Assembly (NCBI RefSeq): GCF_029626105.1
Contig: NZ_JARUBH010000009.1
Span: 3,534,001 to 3,598,000 of the forward strand
Direction: 5' to 3'
DNA from: Solwaraspora sp. WMMD792
GTDB lineage: Bacteria; Actinomycetota; Actinomycetes; Mycobacteriales; Micromonosporaceae
Length of the DNA: 64,000 bases
Positions 21,960 to 36,158 of the stretch are shown here, in pieces. A program made the position numbers and the translations under genes. The notes beneath the pieces were generated by a model. The model was not told the DNA's origin and did not search any database. It saw nothing but the letters and a program-made list of their open reading frames with translations. Each line of letters opens with the position of its first letter. Within the stretch, counting starts at the first letter, position 1.

Positions 21960-22007
21960 TTTCCGGCCGGCGGACCACCATGCTTTCCGGCCGGCGGACC
22001 ACCATGC
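21960..22007. repeat. 24-bp perfect tandem duplication
   Basis: Two identical copies of a 24-bp unit beginning TTTCCGGCCGGCGGACCACC and ending ATGC lie head to tail between the divergent ATPase and EamA genes. They occupy the shared promoter space. Each contains CCGGCCGG. Confidence 0.9.
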
Positions 22008-26030: not shown

Positions 26031-26519
26031 ATGCAGACACATCCGAACGTGCAGGCGGTGCAGGACGCGTTGAACACCGCCGACGCCCGGGACGGCTCCG
26101 GTGCCAACTGCCGGGTCCGGCTACTGCCGGACGCGGTGCACACCGCCGCCGCGGCGGCCGCCGCCCTCGACATCGAGGTGGGGCAGATCGCCAACTCGTT
26201 GATCTTCGACGCCGACGGTGAGCCGCTGCTGGTGCTCACCTCGGGTGCACACCGGGTGGACACCGCGAAGGTCGCCGCCGACCTCGGCGTCTACGCGCTG
26301 CGCCGAGCCACCCCCGAGTTCGTCCGGGAACACACCGGGCAGCCGATCGGCGGGGTCGCGCCGCTGGGCCACCCCAAGCCGGTCCGCACCCTGGTCGACG
26401 TCGCCCTGGAGCAGTACCCGGAGATCTGGGCGGCCGGCGGCGTACCCCGGGCGGTCTTCCCGACCACCTACGCCGAGCTGCTGCGGATCACCGCCGGCAC
26501 CGCCGCCGAGGTGGCGTGA
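26031..26519 (+). CDS. YbaK/EbsC-type aminoacyl-tRNA deacylase
   Basis: This 162-residue protein starts at ATG 26031. The fold markers are VGQIANSLIFDADGEPLLVLTSGAHRVD and a C-terminal GGVAPLGHPKPVRTLVD...EIWAAGG, as in YbaK/ProX editing domains that clear mischarged tRNA. The lysine that is catalytically important in E. coli YbaK (around IxKTLV) is replaced here by Asn (IANSLIF), so chemistry or specificity may differ. The stop overlaps the next start (GTGA). Confidence 0.8.
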   Translation: MQTHPNVQAVQDALNTADARDGSGANCRVRLLPDAVHTAAAAAAALDIEVGQIANSLIFDADGEPLLVLTSGAHRVDTAKVAADLGVYALRRATPEFVREHTGQPIGGVAPLGHPKPVRTLVDVALEQYPEIWAAGGVPRAVFPTTYAELLRITAGTAAEVA

Positions 26520-27325
26520 ACGACCCGGTCGACCACGCGGCCCCGGTTCCCGACCACGCGGCCCCGGGTTCCGGGCTGGTCACGCTGCACGTCTGGCGGG
26601 TCCCCCGGCGACGGTTGCCGCGCGTGCTGGCCCGGATGGCCGTCGACGCCCGCCGGCTGCGGCGCGTCGACGGCGTACGGTTCGCCAAACTGCTCGGCAC
26701 CGGAACCGGCACCGGATTCGGGCCCACCGACGTCGACCCGACCCGGTGGGCGGCGCTGGTGGTGTGGGACGACCCGGCGGCGGCGGCCGGGTTCGACACC
26801 TCGCCGGTCGGGCAGTCGTGGCGACGGATCGCCGACGCGCGGGTCCGCGTCGACCTGCGGCCGTTGCACAGCCGGGGCCGCTGGTCCGGCATCGCGCCGT
26901 TCGGCGAGCCGAGCGGTGGGCCGGGCGGCGAGCCGGGCGGTGGGCAGCCCGGCGCCGGGCGACCGGTGTTGGCGTTGACCCGGGCGCGGCTGCGGCCGGC
27001 GAAGGCGGTCACCTTCTGGCGGGCGGTGCCGCCGGTCGCCGCCGCCCTGGCCGACGCCGACGGGCTGCACTGCCGATTCGGCGTCGGCGAGGCACCGCTC
27101 GGCTGGCAGGGCACCGTCAGCGTGTGGCGGGACACGGCGGATCTGACCCGGTTCGCGTACCGTCACCCGCAGCACCGGGCGGCCATCACCCGGACCCCGG
27201 TGACACAGTGGTACGCCGAGGAGCTCTTCGCCCGGTTCGAGGTGCTCGGTGTCACCGGCGACCGGGCCGTGCTGGGCTGGGCCGGAGAGGACGAGGATGG
27301 GACATGCGGTGCTGGCGGCGGATGA
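26516..27325 (+). CDS. crtA: Spheroidene monooxygenase-like protein (CrtA family)
   Basis: This 269-residue protein starts at GTG 26516, overlapping the ybaK stop. Two similar ferredoxin-like halves are joined by a Gly/Pro-rich linker (about residues 135-150). The segment RFAKLLGTGTGTGFGPTDVDPTRWAALVVWDDPAAAAGF and the later VSVWRDTADLTRFAYRHPQHRAAI resemble CrtA spheroidene monooxygenase, which oxidises acyclic carotenoids at C-2. Its position upstream of cruF, a glycosyltransferase and a CrtI-like desaturase supports a carotenoid role. The reaction is not proven, and actinobacterial homologs also occur outside pigment clusters. Confidence 0.65.
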   Translation: MNDPVDHAAPVPDHAAPGSGLVTLHVWRVPRRRLPRVLARMAVDARRLRRVDGVRFAKLLGTGTGTGFGPTDVDPTRWAALVVWDDPAAAAGFDTSPVGQSWRRIADARVRVDLRPLHSRGRWSGIAPFGEPSGGPGGEPGGGQPGAGRPVLALTRARLRPAKAVTFWRAVPPVAAALADADGLHCRFGVGEAPLGWQGTVSVWRDTADLTRFAYRHPQHRAAITRTPVTQWYAEELFARFEVLGVTGDRAVLGWAGEDEDGTCGAGGG

Positions 27326-27338
27326 GAGGCGGACCCCG

Positions 27339-27941
27339 ATGAGGCTGGTGCCGTGGCTGCCGGACGACCTGCTGCGGCGGCTCGACGACGTGGTCACCGT
27401 GTACGGCGAGGCGATGAACTACCGGGCCGAGCTGCTGGAGGTACGCCGCGGCTACATCGCCACCCACGTGCGGCGCCCCGGGTTCCGGGCGGTCGCCACC
27501 CTCACCGCCGAAGGCGCGCTCGCCGGGTTCGGCTACGGCTACCGGTCGGCCGCCGGGCAGTGGTGGCACGACCAGGTACGCGGTGCGCTGTCGAAAACCG
27601 CCCGCAGCACCTGGCTCACCGACTGCTTCGAAGTGGTGGAGCTGCACGTGCACCCGCAGGCGCAGGGGCACGGGCTCGGCGCCCACCAGCTGCGTACCCT
27701 GCTCGGGATGGCCGCCGGCGCGACCACCCTGCTGTCCACCCCGGAGGCCGACGAGCAGCGGTCCCGGGCCTGGCGGTTGTACCGGCGATTCGGCTACGTC
27801 GACGTGCTGCGCAACTTTCACTTTCCCGGCGACGAGCGGGCCTTCGCGGTCCTCGGCCGTACCCTGCCGCTGCCCCACCCGCAGGCCGCACCGGCTGCGG
27901 GGGCCGGGCCGTCGACGGACCCGGCGCCGCAGCGGTCATGA
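27339..27941 (+). CDS. GNAT acetyltransferase in the carotenoid operon
   Basis: This 200-residue protein starts at ATG 27339 behind GAGAGGCGGA; an earlier ATG at 27297 would overlap the previous gene. The CoA-binding segment is VVELHVHPQAQGHGLGAHQLRTLLG, followed by RAWRLYRRFGYVDVLRNFHF. The substrate is unknown. The stop overlaps the cruF start (ATGA), so it is cotranslated with pigment genes. Confidence 0.75.
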   Translation: MRLVPWLPDDLLRRLDDVVTVYGEAMNYRAELLEVRRGYIATHVRRPGFRAVATLTAEGALAGFGYGYRSAAGQWWHDQVRGALSKTARSTWLTDCFEVVELHVHPQAQGHGLGAHQLRTLLGMAAGATTLLSTPEADEQRSRAWRLYRRFGYVDVLRNFHFPGDERAFAVLGRTLPLPHPQAAPAAGAGPSTDPAPQRS

Positions 27942-28741
27942 GCGCCCGACGGGTGCTGCCCTGGGCATTGCTGGCGCTGCTGGTGCTGGCCCAGATCGGC
28001 TACCCGCTGACCGGCGGCGGCACCCGGGCCGGATTGACCGTCGCCACCGTGGTGATCGGCTTCGTCCTGTCGGTCGGCCACGCGTGGCTGACCCGGGGGC
28101 CGGCCGCCGCCGCCGCGCTGCTGCTGGTCACCACCGGCGGTGGGCTGGCGGTCGAAGCCTGTGGGGTGGCGACCGGGGTCCCGTTCGGCGGCTACGACTA
28201 CGCCGGCACGCTCGGGCCGAAGCTGCTCGGCGTACCGGTGGTGATCCCGCTGGCCTGGACCTGGATGGCCTGGCCGGCGTGGTTGGTCGCGGTGCGGCTG
28301 GTCCGCCCGACGGCGGCCCGGATCGCCGTCGGCGCGGCCGCGCTGGCCTCCTGGGACCTCTTCCTCGACCCGCAGATGGTCACCGAGGGCCACTGGACCT
28401 GGCTGGACACCGACCCGGCGCTGCCCGGGGTGCCGGACGTCCCGATCGGCAACTACCTGGGCTGGCTGGCCGTGGCAGCGGTGATGATGACGCTGCTGCG
28501 GCTCACCGCCGGGGTCGACGCCCGCCGGGCCGACGGGCCGGCGGACGCCCCGATGTACGCGCTGTACCTGTGGACGTACGCGTCGAGTCTGCTCGCCCAC
28601 GCGGTGTTCCTCGGGCTGCCCGCCTCGGCCGGCTGGGGCGGGCTCGGCATGGGGCTGGTGGCGGTGCCGTTCGCGGTGATGCTGATCCGGACGCGGCGGG
28701 CGACACGACCTGGTGGACGACGGCCGCGACGGGTGACATGA
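27938..28741 (+). CDS. cruF: CruF-type carotenoid 1,2-hydratase (DUF422)
   Basis: This 267-residue integral membrane protein starts at ATG 27938 and has about seven helices. Family markers are TGVPFGGYDYAGTLGPKLLGVPVVIPLAWTWMAWPAW and the acidic segment SWDLFLDPQMVTEGHWTW. CruF adds water to the psi-end of gamma-carotene-like compounds (the bisanhydrobacterioruberin hydratase family), making the C-1' hydroxyl that is then glycosylated. It is followed directly by a glycosyltransferase, as in myxoxanthophyll and sioxanthin loci. Its TGA overlaps the first copy of a 17-bp tandem repeat. Confidence 0.85.
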   Translation: MSARRVLPWALLALLVLAQIGYPLTGGGTRAGLTVATVVIGFVLSVGHAWLTRGPAAAAALLLVTTGGGLAVEACGVATGVPFGGYDYAGTLGPKLLGVPVVIPLAWTWMAWPAWLVAVRLVRPTAARIAVGAAALASWDLFLDPQMVTEGHWTWLDTDPALPGVPDVPIGNYLGWLAVAAVMMTLLRLTAGVDARRADGPADAPMYALYLWTYASSLLAHAVFLGLPASAGWGGLGMGLVAVPFAVMLIRTRRATRPGGRRPRRVT

Positions 28742-28805
28742 CCAGGTGGACGGCATGACCAGGTGGACGGCATGACCAGGTGGACGGCATGACCGGGTGG
28801 ACGGC
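28738..28805 (+). repeat. Four 17-bp tandem repeats forming a chain of ATGA-coupled mini-ORFs
   Basis: Three copies of ATGACCAGGTGGACGGC and a fourth with one change lie at 28738, 28755, 28772 and 28789. Each of the first three encodes MTRWTA and then a TGA that overlaps the ATG of the next copy. The first copy's ATG overlaps the cruF stop, and the fourth ATG starts the glycosyltransferase. Since 17 is not a multiple of three, each copy shifts frame, yet the stop-restart chain stays intact at any copy number. Confidence 0.9.
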
Positions 28806-29964
28806 GGCCGCGACGGGTGCGCTCGGCATCGTCGCGGTGCTGCTGGCGCTGACCGCGGCGACGCTGGTCAACACGCTGCGCTGGCTGCGCCGGCCCGGCC
28901 CGGCGGCACCGGTGACCGAACCGGTGTCGATCCTGCTGCCGCTGCGCGACGAGGCCGACCGGGTGGCACCGTGCCTGCGGGCGCTGCTCGCCCAACGGCA
29001 GCTGACCGACTGGTGGATCGTGGTGCTCGACGACGGGTCGACCGACGGCACCGCCGAGGTGGTCGCCGAGGTGGCCGGCGACGACCCCCGGGTACGGCTG
29101 ATCACCGGTGCCCCGCTGCCGCCCGGCTGGCTGGGCAAGCCGCACGCCTGCCAGCAGCTCGCGGACGCGGTCTCCTTCATGCCGGACGGGGTACTGGTCT
29201 TCGTCGACGCCGATGTGGTCCTCGCCCCTGATGCGGTGGCCGCCGCCGTCGGCACCCTGCGGTCGGTGCCGGCGCAGCTGCTCAGCCCGTACCCGCGGAT
29301 CGTCGCCGGGTCGGTCGGCGAGCGGCTGGTGCAGCCGCTGCTGCAGTGGAGCTGGCTGACGTTCCTGCCGCTGCGCGCGATGGAACGTTCGCCGCGTACC
29401 TCGCTGGCCGCCGCCGGCGGCCAGTTCCTACTGGTCGACCACGACGCGTACCGGCGGGCCGGCGGGCACGCCGCCGTGCGGGACCAGGTGCTGGAGGACA
29501 TCGGGCTGGCCCGTGCGGTGAAGCGGGTCGGTGGGCGGATCGCCCTGGCCGACGGTTCGGCGTTGGCGACCTGCCGGATGTACGGGTCCTGGCGGGAGCT
29601 GTCCGCCGGCTACACCAAGTCGCTGTGGGCGTCGCTGCCGTCGCCGGCCGGCGCGGCCGCCGTCGTGGCCGGACTGTTGACGTTGTACGCGGCCCCGCCG
29701 GTGCTCGGCGTTGTCGGGCTGGCCGGGCTGGCCGCCGGGGCCGGTCCGGCGGCGGCGGCGCTGGTCGCGGCCGGTGCCGTCGGGTACGGGCTCGGGGTGG
29801 CCGGGCGGACGCTCGCCGCCCGGGCCACCGGCGGCCGGGCGATGCCGGACGGATTGGCACATCCGGTCTCGGTCGCGCTGCTCGGCTGGCTCGTGATCCG
29901 GTCCTACTATCTGCGCAAGCGACGGCGCCTCGCCTGGCGCGGTCGCCCGGTGGCCCTGCCCTGA
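28789..29964 (+). CDS. Family 2 glycosyltransferase of the carotenoid locus (CruG-like)
   Basis: This 391-residue protein starts at ATG 28789, the last of four repeated ATGs; an ATG at 28780 is in frame but less likely. An N-terminal helix (GIVAVLLALTAATLV) anchors a GT-A domain with VSILLPLRDEADRV, LDDGSTDGT and the metal-binding FVDADVV, then QWSWLTFLPLR and two or three C-terminal helices. It probably transfers a sugar to the hydroxyl made by CruF. Ribosome access depends on cruF translation, because no separate Shine-Dalgarno is seen. Confidence 0.82.
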   Translation: MTGWTAAATGALGIVAVLLALTAATLVNTLRWLRRPGPAAPVTEPVSILLPLRDEADRVAPCLRALLAQRQLTDWWIVVLDDGSTDGTAEVVAEVAGDDPRVRLITGAPLPPGWLGKPHACQQLADAVSFMPDGVLVFVDADVVLAPDAVAAAVGTLRSVPAQLLSPYPRIVAGSVGERLVQPLLQWSWLTFLPLRAMERSPRTSLAAAGGQFLLVDHDAYRRAGGHAAVRDQVLEDIGLARAVKRVGGRIALADGSALATCRMYGSWRELSAGYTKSLWASLPSPAGAAAVVAGLLTLYAAPPVLGVVGLAGLAAGAGPAAAALVAAGAVGYGLGVAGRTLAARATGGRAMPDGLAHPVSVALLGWLVIRSYYLRKRRRLAWRGRPVALP

Positions 29965-29991: not shown

Positions 29992-31512
29992 ATGAGCCGG
30001 GTGGTGGTGATCGGCGCCGGGGTCGGCGGGTTGGCCGCCGCGATCCGGCTGGCACACGGCGGGCACGACGTCACCGTCATCGAACAGGCCGACACCGTCG
30101 GCGGGAAACTGGCCCGCTGGACCCGGCAGACCCCCGCCGGTGCGTTCACCTTCGACACCGGGCCGAGCCTGCTGACCCTGCCGCAGGTCTTCGCCGACCT
30201 GTTCGACGGCACCGGCGAACCACTGGAGAAGGTGCTGGATCTGGTCGAGCTGGATCCGATCGTGCGGCACCGGTTCCCGGCCGGGCCCGGTGGGCCGGTA
30301 GGACGGCTCGACCCGTGCTGGCTCGACTCGTGCGCCGACCCGGCGACGTTCGCCGAACGGATCGCGGTGGCCTTCGGCGACGGAGCCGCCGACGACTGGC
30401 AGCGGGTGTGGCGGCGGGCCCGACGGATCTGGGACGCCTCCTGGCGGGACGTGCTGCGCCGGGAGGTCAGCTCGCCGCTGGCGATGGCGCGGATGGCGTA
30501 CCGGCTCGGCGACCTGACCGCGGTCGCCCCAGGCCGCAGCCTGCGCGGGGTGCTGCGCCGCGAGGTCCGCGACCCGCGACTGCGGACCCTGCTGGAGCGG
30601 TACGCCACCTACACCGGCGCGGACCCACGGCGGGCCCCGGCGGCGCTGCTCGCCGTGCCGTACGCCGAGTTGACCTTCGGCGGCTGGTACGTGCGGGGCG
30701 GGCTGGGGGCGCTCGCCGACGCGCTGCTGTCCCGCTGCCTGGACCTGGGCGTGGTGGTGCGCACCGGGTCGACGGTCACCGCGATCGACGCGGCCGGTGG
30801 CCGGGTGCACGGCGTCCGGGTGGCCGGTGAGGCCCGTCCGGTGCCGGCCGACGTGGTGGTGGCCAACGTGGACGCGTCGCGGGTCTACCGGGAGTTGCTG
30901 CCGCACGCCCGGCGGCTGACCCGACTGGCCGACCGCAGCCTCGGCGGTTTCGTACTGCTGCTCGGGGTGCGCGGCCGGACCCCGGAGCTGGCCCACCACA
31001 CGGTGTTCTTCCCGCGCGACTACGACGCCGAGTTCGACGCGGTGTTCGGTGATCCGGGGCGGGGTCGGCCGGCCCGGCCGGTCACCGACCCGACGATCTT
31101 CGTGACGGTCGCCGACGACCCGGCGGCCCGGCCGGACGGTCACGAGGCGTGGTTCGTGCTGGTCAACGCGGCCCGCCAGGACCTGTCGCTGGCCGGGGTG
31201 GACTGGCGCCGGCCGGGTCTGGCCGACGCGTACGCCGATCAGGTGCTGCGGGTGCTGGCCGACCGGGGGGTGGACGTGCGGGACCGGCTGCTGTTCCGCG
31301 AGGTGCGGACACCGGCGGACCTGGCCGCGTCGACCGGCACGCCGGGCGGGTCTATCTACGGTACGGCCGGCGGGCTGCTGCGCCCGGCGAACCGGGCACC
31401 GGCGGCCGGACTGTTCCTGGTCGGCGGGTCGGTGCACCCCGGTGGCGGGCTGCCGATGGTGACCCTGTCAGCGCAGATCGTCGCCGACCGGATCGGCCCG
31501 GCCGGCCGCTGA
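29992..31512 (+). CDS. CrtI/CrtD-family carotenoid desaturase
   Basis: This 506-residue protein starts at ATG 29992 behind GAGGAGGAG. The FAD-binding dinucleotide fold is VVVIGAGVGGLAAAIRLA, with VIEQADTVGGKLARW and FDTGPSLLTLP; the C-terminal signature is SVHPGGGLPMVTLSAQIVADRI. The family includes phytoene desaturase CrtI and 3,4-desaturase CrtD. Placement after cruF and a glycosyltransferase favours CrtD, acting on the hydroxylated psi-end, but sequence inspection alone cannot separate the two. Confidence 0.8.
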   Translation: MSRVVVIGAGVGGLAAAIRLAHGGHDVTVIEQADTVGGKLARWTRQTPAGAFTFDTGPSLLTLPQVFADLFDGTGEPLEKVLDLVELDPIVRHRFPAGPGGPVGRLDPCWLDSCADPATFAERIAVAFGDGAADDWQRVWRRARRIWDASWRDVLRREVSSPLAMARMAYRLGDLTAVAPGRSLRGVLRREVRDPRLRTLLERYATYTGADPRRAPAALLAVPYAELTFGGWYVRGGLGALADALLSRCLDLGVVVRTGSTVTAIDAAGGRVHGVRVAGEARPVPADVVVANVDASRVYRELLPHARRLTRLADRSLGGFVLLLGVRGRTPELAHHTVFFPRDYDAEFDAVFGDPGRGRPARPVTDPTIFVTVADDPAARPDGHEAWFVLVNAARQDLSLAGVDWRRPGLADAYADQVLRVLADRGVDVRDRLLFREVRTPADLAASTGTPGGSIYGTAGGLLRPANRAPAAGLFLVGGSVHPGGGLPMVTLSAQIVADRIGPAGR

Positions 31513-34331: not shown

Positions 34332-36158
34332 TCAGCTCAGCCGGTAACTGTTGGCGAAGTTGTTCGGGCTGCAGACGTTGAGCTGGCTGCGTACCTGGTC
34401 GTAGCTGAACCCGGTCGGCACCCGGCAGGCCCACATCCCGACCACCGGCACCCGGATCCGGTAGCTGTTGGCGAAGTTGTTCGGGCTGCACGTGTTGAGC
34501 CGGTTGGTCACCAGGTCGTAGGTGTACCCGGACGGGACGGTGCAGGTGGAGATGTTGTCCCTGGGCAACCGCAGCCGGTAGCTGTTGGCAAAGTTGTTCG
34601 GGCTGCATTCGTTGAGCCGGCTGACCACCAGATCGTAGGTGTAGCCGGACGGCACCGAGCAGGCGTAGGTGCCGTCCAGGTTCTGCCCGACCGTCCAGCT
34701 GAAGGCGGTCGCGGCGGTCCGGTTGGCGGCGTCGCGGGCGGTCACCGTCACGCTGTACGTCCGGACGGTCGTCGGCGTTCCCGAGATCAGCCCGGTCGAG
34801 GAGTTGATCGACAGCCCGGCCGGCAGCCCGGTCGCCGACCAGGTGTACGGCGCGGTCCCGCCGGAGGCGGTCATCCGCAGGCTGACCGCGACGCCCCGCA
34901 GGGTGTTCTGGGCGCCCGGGTTGTCGACGGCCGGCATGCCCGGCGTACCGCCGCCGGTGTTGACGAACAGCAGCCGGTTCGGCGAGCCGCTTCCCGCGTT
35001 GGTGATCTTGTTGGGGGTGGCGATGGTGGACATCGCGGTGGCGACCTGGGCGGGGGTCAGGTTCGGGCTGGCTGCAAGGATCAGCGCCGCGCCGCCGGCG
35101 ACGTGCGGTGCCGCCATCGAGGTGCCGCTGATCGTGTTGGTGGCGGTGTTGCCGGTGTGCCAGGCCGAGGTGATGCCGACCCCGGGGGCGAAGATGTCGG
35201 TGCAGCTTCCGTAGTTGGAGAAGGAGGCACGGGCGTCGTTGCTGGCGCTGGCGTTGACGGTGATTGCCTGGCTGACCCGGGCCGGGGTGAAGTTGCAGGC
35301 GTTGGAGTTGGAGTTGCCGGAGGCGATCGCGTAGACCACGCCGTCGGCGATGGAGTTGCGTACCGCGTTCTCCAGGGTGGTGTTGCTGCCCTGGCCGCCC
35401 AGGCTCATGTTGGCCACCGCCGGACCGGAGGCGTGGTTGCCGGTCACCCAGTCGACCCCGGCCGTCACCGCGGCGAACGAGCCGCTGCCGGCGCAGTCGA
35501 GCACCTTCACGGCGACCAGGCGGACCGCCTTGGCCACCCCGTACGAGGTGCCGCCGACCGTGCCGGCGACGTGGGTGCCGTGCCCGTTGCAGTCGGAGTT
35601 GCTGCCGCCCACGGTGTTGACCCCCCACACCGCCCGGCCACCGAAGTCGCTGTGCGTGGTACGGATGCCGGTGTCGATGATGTACGCGGTGACGCCGGAC
35701 GCGGTGTTCGGGTAGGTGTAGGCGTTGTCCAGTGGCAGATTCCGCTGGTCGATCCGGTTCAGGCCCCAGGACGGCGGGTTGGTCTGGGTGGCGGTGGTCC
35801 GCACCTCGCCGTTCTGCTCGACGTAGGCCACGTCGGGGTGGGCGGCCAGCCGGCGGGCGGCCCGCTCGCTGAACCGGCCGGCGAAGCCGCGCAGCGCGTG
35901 TCGGTAGGTGTAGTCGACGCGGGCACCGTACCGGCCGGCCAACGTGCTGGTGAGCGCGTCCACCCGGTGGGGAGACGCGTCACGGTCGGCGAAGACGACC
36001 AGGTAGCTGTCCTTGATGGCGGTCGGGTTGGCGGTGCCGAGGATCTCACCTGCGGCCTGCGCGGGTGCGGCGGCGACGGTGCTGAACGCCAGCAGCGCCG
36101 CCAGGGCCGCACCGACGGCGGCGAGCCGCCTGCCGCGAACATGTCGAACCTTTCCCAT
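34332..36158 (-). CDS. Secreted subtilisin-like serine protease with C-terminal triple repeat
   Basis: This 608-residue protein starts at ATG 36158 (GGGGAGA upstream). A signal peptide ends near AAPAQAA, an I9 propeptide covers about 45-115, and the S8 domain follows with the triad Asp (YIIDTGI), His (GHGTHVAGT) and Ser (GTSMAAPH). An Ig-like putative domain (TAPYTWSATGLPAGLSINSSTGLISGTPTT) comes next. The end is three copies of a roughly 38-residue unit, each with C-x-VPxGxxYDxVxxxLNxCSPNNFANSYR. The repeat is probably a cell-wall or substrate-binding module with one disulfide per unit. A promoter is seen at 36225-36253. Confidence 0.9.
   Translation of the reverse strand: MGKVRHVRGRRLAAVGAALAALLAFSTVAAAPAQAAGEILGTANPTAIKDSYLVVFADRDASPHRVDALTSTLAGRYGARVDYTYRHALRGFAGRFSERAARRLAAHPDVAYVEQNGEVRTTATQTNPPSWGLNRIDQRNLPLDNAYTYPNTASGVTAYIIDTGIRTTHSDFGGRAVWGVNTVGGSNSDCNGHGTHVAGTVGGTSYGVAKAVRLVAVKVLDCAGSGSFAAVTAGVDWVTGNHASGPAVANMSLGGQGSNTTLENAVRNSIADGVVYAIASGNSNSNACNFTPARVSQAITVNASASNDARASFSNYGSCTDIFAPGVGITSAWHTGNTATNTISGTSMAAPHVAGGAALILAASPNLTPAQVATAMSTIATPNKITNAGSGSPNRLLFVNTGGGTPGMPAVDNPGAQNTLRGVAVSLRMTASGGTAPYTWSATGLPAGLSINSSTGLISGTPTTVRTYSVTVTARDAANRTAATAFSWTVGQNLDGTYACSVPSGYTYDLVVSRLNECSPNNFANSYRLRLPRDNISTCTVPSGYTYDLVTNRLNTCSPNNFANSYRIRVPVVGMWACRVPTGFSYDQVRSQLNVCSPNNFANSYRLS

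Follow-up and report, generated by a model that had tools for sequence, protein, structure and literature searches.

Between a cruF-like gene and a glycosyltransferase (GT) gene of Solwaraspora sp. WMMD792 we find four 17-bp tandem units, of which the first three are short ORFs linked by ATGA to each other and to both genes. We consider it likely that this array is a translational relay, working by termination and reinitiation, which was built by local tandem duplication and not by a mobile repeat. In the following, "the window" denotes the whole stretch of 64,000 nucleotides that was analysed; all features named lie on its forward strand.

The operon and the array

The gene for the cruF-like carotenoid hydratase (27938-28741, 267 aa, PF04240) overlaps the stop codon of the preceding GNAT gene with its start, as ATGA. 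It is followed by the gene for a family 2 glycosyltransferase (28789-29964, 391 aa), and this by the next gene in the operon, for a CrtI/CrtD-like carotenoid desaturase (29992-31512). The GT appears weakly HpnB/CruG-like, staying under the curated NCBIfam cut-offs for HpnB and CruG; judging from the neighbouring genes, it would act on carotenoids. Upstream of the GNAT gene there is an ORF (26516-27325) which is, at a guess, monooxygenase-like. A mini-ORF of six codons (MRGGPR-stop, 27322-27342) leads in an ATGA chain from its stop to the GNAT start at 27339.

The array occupies positions 28738-28805. Unit 1 (28738-28754), unit 2 (28755-28771) and unit 3 (28772-28788) are identical, and unit 4 (28789-28805) has one change (A to G). 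According to TRF, the period is 17, with 4.1 copies, 98% matches and a score of 131, which ranks second among the window's 129 rows. The top-scoring tandem repeat of the window is a 117-bp array at 34338-34664 (2.8 copies, 78%, score 386); an exact 24-bp tandem duplication is also present at 21960-22007.

Units 1-3 read ATG ACC AGG TGG ACG GCA TGA, where the TGA overlaps the next ATG. Their ATG codons, together with that of unit 4, lie at 28738, 28755, 28772 and 28789, which gives four ATGA sites spaced 17 nt apart with overlapping stop and start codons at every step. Three ATGA-linked mini-ORFs (28738-28758, 28755-28775 and 28772-28792), each encoding MTRWTA-stop, span the distance between the cruF stop and the GT start. 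The cruF TGA (28739-28741) overlaps unit 1, unit 3 contributes the Shine-Dalgarno-like AGGTGG of the GT start, and unit 4 consists of the GT's first codons (ATGACCGGGTGGACGGC), the GT ORF beginning at 28789. Our rough gene caller had chosen GTG at 28780 instead; we rejected this start, since the GT alignments of relatives begin at 28789 (to the nearest relatives, at residue 1). The four repeats, the MTRWTA reading with its overlapping stops, the cruF stop within the first copy and the GT start at the fourth had all been described in the initial annotation, and our coordinates and sequences agree with it, three of the copies being exact.

With a period of 2 modulo 3, the end of each unit falls on the following start codon, so that both proteins stay intact, and their coupling would be preserved, at any copy number. 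When we varied the copy number in silico between 0 and 6 units, CruF remained at 267 aa and the GT at 391 aa, in line with the earlier view that each copy is self-contained. With both ORFs unchanged over this range, the array is not a contingency locus in which slippage switches a gene by its frame.

Three further candidates for the nature of the unit were rejected. A mobile repeat would have copies elsewhere, and the array string is genome-unique (7.4 Mb of the own genome, up to 3 mismatches; 3 matches, all inside the array). A conserved peptide does not fit the mini-ORF peptides, which, read by hand, differ: MTRWTA, MTGWAA, VNGWRA and MTSAVPA. As to RNA structure, the region 28690-28850 folds no better than its shuffles (z = -0.61).

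The proposed relay

Ancestrally, cruF and the GT would have met in an ordinary ATGA overlap of 4 nt, where ribosomes finishing the first gene begin again on the second. Duplication of 17 bp including the ATGA, repeated in the lineage, would then have set stop-start units, each complete in itself, between cruF and the GT. After leaving cruF, a ribosome would restart at unit 1, make a six-residue peptide, terminate at the next ATGA and reach the GT by further rounds of termination and restart. The peptide would be without a role of its own, and every unit would supply a modest Shine-Dalgarno-like AGGTGG ahead of the next ATG. The initial annotation had proposed that ribosomes pass down the chain. 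In support of it, the lengthened junctions of relatives keep the stop-start chain (see below), from which we infer the use of the chain by ribosomes.

According to PMC10666635, reinitiation is almost lost at gaps of some 20-38 nt, and the upstream gene's last 15 nt are sufficient. Since reinitiation falls steeply with distance in this account, an unbridged gap of 51 nt should uncouple the GT, whereas the chain supplies a 4-nt overlap at every step.

Copy number in the genus

We compared the junction in seven genomes of the genus including the own one, one genome per species; the GT is present in 7/7. There are four units in the window, two in G001 (96% GT identity), and one each in G004, G002, G005 and G006. 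This comparison had been suggested as a check in the initial annotation, and the copy number indeed varies between species in 17-bp steps (4, 2, 1). In G003, which has the lowest GT identity of the congeners (80%), cruF ends slightly earlier, on CTGA, and the junction reads GTGAACGGGTGGCGGGC and then GTGAACGGGTGGACC, which is a 17-bp duplication with GTG starts. We take this duplication as independent, given the single unit in G004, which stands closer to the window.

A unit number that varies between species is what one would see if the array were an adaptive rheostat, the idea put forward originally: slippage would change the copy number and thereby set the GT level in small downward steps. 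M. tuberculosis fpg1, where, in the accessible portion of PMC2734929, longer upstream repeats go with higher, not lower, mRNA, may also be counted in its favour. However, four of the seven congeners have a single unit, and each unit adds a Shine-Dalgarno match, so the effect could run either way. We regard the rheostat as improbable.

The sequences on both sides of the array are similar, which had been read as a hint of how the array arose. The similarity is real, as 28702-28734 and 28786-28818 are identical at 29 of 33 positions (control windows: at most 21/33). The flanking repeat is not the parent of the 17-bp unit, though, and we rejected this origin: it goes back to a separate, older event in which 33 bp from the 5' end of the GT were duplicated, and the copy at 28702-28734 today forms part of the cruF reading frame, close to its end. 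The same comparison yields 26/33 and 25/33 identical positions in G001 and G004 (L183 and L184), and 18-19/33 in G002, G005 and G006 (L185-L187), where the control maximum is 19. This earlier 33-bp duplication has supplied the final CruF codons in three species (the window's, G001 and G004). Taking together the independent case in G003, this older duplicate and the array of the window, at least three duplications have probably taken place at the junction.

The cruF-GT junction in other genomes

The survey sample comprised 184 loci with both genes, namely the window, L015-L037, L038-L117 (which include other Actinobacteria, e.g. Amycolatopsis, Gordonia and MAGs) and 80 stretches of 20 kb. A direct stop-start overlap is found in 149 loci and absent in 35. 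Once 9 loci that repeated a protein already present had been set aside, 175 distinct loci were left, with 141 direct junctions on ATGA or GTGA (4-nt overlap), 15 junctions with a start-capable stop and a gap, and 19 others.

In 14 of the 15 start-capable gaps, the ORFs that begin at the cruF stop chain exactly via ATGA or GTGA to the GT start; in the remaining one (L045, 62 nt) the relay phase is kept, but a TAG stop comes a few nt early. Phase-1 gaps at start-capable cruF stops were not found in the 175 distinct loci (0/15). The difference of 14 to 0 corresponds to p = 1e-4 (two-sided binomial), in a test which scores phase 0 as direct and to which phase 0 is invisible, and with the caveat that several of the relays stem from repeat insertions, where the insert's length may dictate the phase, and that many are shared by descent. 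On a GT tree (a quick FastTree, first 40 residues left out), the 15 gap junctions require 14 label changes, at least 9 of them forced by starred branches.

The lengthened junctions are diverse. L226 has an array of 20+20+53 nt with MTSAVPA peptides, further relays measure 50 nt (L200) and 53+53 nt (L196), and there are inserts of 32 nt (L240), 71 nt (L022/L037) and 80 nt (L203). The arrays in L226, L200, L046 (41+41 nt, at GT-CrtI) and L063 (17 nt, at monooxygenase-GNAT) are independent ones that differ in sequence and period from that of the window.

These counts bear on the alternative of neutral slippage only, in which the array would do no harm and translation of the GT would begin at a site of its own. 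Few places in coding sequence can take up a 17-bp duplication without damage, and a start-stop overlap is among them; the frames are intact for 0-6 units, the AGGTGG match is the GT's own site, and the junction also underwent the 33-bp duplication. Pure tolerance, on the other hand, predicts equal numbers for phases 1 and 2, because neither alters CruF or the GT, and this is not what we see at cruF-GT. Tandem duplications in general give evidence on both sides. At start-capable gene ends (14/1246) the phases 2/0/1 occur 9/4/1 times, several of these being inserted repeats, so that phase 1 is again less frequent than tolerance would have it. Among the gene-internal control duplications (26/6854), 18 are in frame and 8 have phase 2, the latter all having a short period (8 or 11 nt). 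Tandem duplicates of more than 11 nt per unit that span xTGA inside called genes are all in frame, so other periods survive at junctions, as expected under neutral slippage. We think neutral slippage alone rather unlikely and prefer the relay, for which the phase bias suggests selection.

Other junctions and all gene pairs

We obtained homology-anchored counts for the other two junctions of the operon on the same 175 loci. The monooxygenase-GNAT junction could be scored in 139 of them, 107 being direct. Where a start-capable stop is followed by a gap, 21 of 23 junctions are exact relays and 2 have phase 0; the relays are 11, 14, 17 or 29 nt long, or two-step (47+62 and 23+47). Other stops followed by a gap (n=9) have phases 0/1/2 in 3/4/2 cases. 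The 17-nt relay is present in the window and in 6/6 other congeners (L183-L188), with no tandem repeat, and is therefore largely one inherited case.

At the GT-CrtI junction (168/175 scorable), a gap follows a start-capable stop in 24 cases. Exact relays account for 13 of these, including two with two steps; the remaining ones comprise 4 of phase 0, 5 of phase 1 and 2 of neither kind. Other stops with a gap (n=99) have phases 0/1/2 in 42/29/28 cases. The five phase-1 mini-ORFs (L044, L049, L081, L250 and L260) end 4 nt past the exact point, which amounts to an 8-nt overlap. Overlaps of 8 nt are among the common gene overlaps in the excerpt of PMC10666635, and possibly, in a reading made after the fact, these cases are relays with an 8-nt overlap.

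For all gene pairs, we used our own codon-based gene caller, whose starts are rough. In the 80 stretches of 20 kb, the ratio of relay to control frame is 31:13 at start-capable stops and 22:43 at other stops (Fisher p = 0.0002); with homologous cases collapsed, the former becomes 22:13 (p = 0.006). On closer reading, 4 of the 13 control-frame cases (L196, L199, L240 and L249) are two-step relays, and the ratio of 31:13 was left uncorrected for them. In 1.2 Mb of the own genome we found 13:5 at start-capable stops and 22:25 at others, which is not significant (Fisher p = 0.10).

Shine-Dalgarno strength

The anti-SD pairing before the GT start of the window is -7.2 kcal/mol, compared to a median of -7.7 for called starts and to -4.8 for random sites. 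Given such a usable Shine-Dalgarno match, the GT may be initiated directly. The values at the GT start of the congeners are -7.6 (G001), -5.7 (G004), -4.9 (G002, G005 and G006) and -8.3 kcal/mol (G003). In the survey, the GT starts after a gap (n=15, hand-picked from the cruF-GT survey) have a median of -7.9, compared to -3.9 for direct ones (n=141; Mann-Whitney p = 3e-6). The inserted sequence thus seems to bring a Shine-Dalgarno site too, at least as a tendency. With the stronger sites at post-relay GT starts, extra copies may raise the GT yield instead of lowering it at each step, as the initial annotation had assumed.

Possibly, the benefit lay in the ribosome site: through the duplication, the AGGTGG belonging to codons 3-4 of the GT would have come to lie ahead of the start, raising GT translation, and the later copies would be passengers. 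The stronger anti-SD pairing after gaps is as expected from this, and the A needed for AGGTG is common to copies 1-3. However, a single duplication would be enough and the phase would not matter, and the gain in the window is small if one compares its value with that of the nearest one-unit relative (-7.2 vs -5.7). We find the ribosome-site explanation conceivable, if on the doubtful side, and retain the relay as the preferred reading.

Relation to known repeats

Mycobacterial interspersed repetitive units (MIRUs), which serve for typing mycobacteria, are said to have been reported by Supply et al. in 1997, for example at senX3-regX3. While the initial annotation knew of no described example of the present design, mycobacterial MIRUs are coupled mini-ORFs with a variable copy number, as can be taken from the available sections of PMC12548453 and PMC9392950. 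In these sections, the internal ORF is coupled to its neighbour at a spacing of -4 nt, an arrangement in which MIRUs would preserve coupling in the manner proposed here (PMC12548453), and senX3-regX3 contains two or three 77-bp repeats (PMC9392950); the excerpt of PMC2734929 gives 40-100 bp and 41 places in one genome. The array is like the MIRUs in that it consists of short junction repeats with an ORF coupled by a 4-nt stop-start overlap; also, 77 bp is 2 modulo 3, as is 17 bp. It is unlike them in its unit of 17 bp instead of 40-100 bp, in its presence at one genomic place instead of many, and in that its unit matches the GT's own first codons. The array thus shares the architecture of a MIRU, while its unit length and its lack of dispersal set it apart from these elements.

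Termination-reinitiation coupling on ATGA, as treated in the accessible text of PMC6728339 and PMC10666635, uses the same overlap, and the common junction of the relatives is exactly of this type, whereas the array chains several steps via six-codon ORFs between two genes. Short upstream ORFs of bacteria that hand ribosomes to the next gene (PMC12548453, in the same section) have a role like the one proposed here; in contrast to them, the array is a repeat, is located inside an operon and is fed by the upstream gene. Among the matches listed in a search of mostly open literature, a local array of this kind appears in no title or abstract start.

In the Micromonosporaceae, we also noted a dispersed repeat that starts with RTGAGCGCGAGGAGYGAGC. 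It has an exact match in 23 of 61 family genomes (e.g. G050, G041, G063, G009 and G038), is found at L191, L197, L227 and L240 as well, and is often tandem in 54-65-bp steps. In the 80 family stretches, 7 of 12 matches open at a called gene stop. Among the matches listed there are 40 arrays, in which the first spacing is 2/0/1 modulo 3 in 20/18/2 cases, phase 1 being rare. The repeat looks like a MIRU counterpart in this family; the matches listed in the literature search contain no paper on it. Another sequence, which begins with RTGARCGAGCG, is found at start-capable stops (L203, L206, L208, L222, L224, L199, L213, L240, L022 and L037), and 18 of its 26 matches in the same stretches open at a called gene stop. 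These 18 divide into 8 short relays (32, 65 or 80 nt) and 10 long ORFs of ~750-840 nt, so this sequence also forms gene N-termini.

Implications

The cruF-GT junction is a natural series with 0 to 3 mini-ORFs in close relatives, and with other sequences elsewhere. Such a series would suit testing serial termination and reinitiation by one ribosome and the cost per step. The phase offers a simple evolutionary reason why some junctions can lengthen and yet stay coupled. The array also connects repeats of local origin with the MIRU elements. As a tentative generalisation, to which we give limited credence, sequence gained at coupled junctions of high-GC actinobacterial operons would mostly be kept if its length is 2 modulo 3 (or 0, as an extension), multi-step arrays would recur, and their copy number could set the ratio of neighbouring proteins. 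If true, this stepping-stone rule would cover the gain of sequence by tandem duplication as well as by repeat insertion, with ATGA or GTGA mini-ORFs bridging the genes in both cases.
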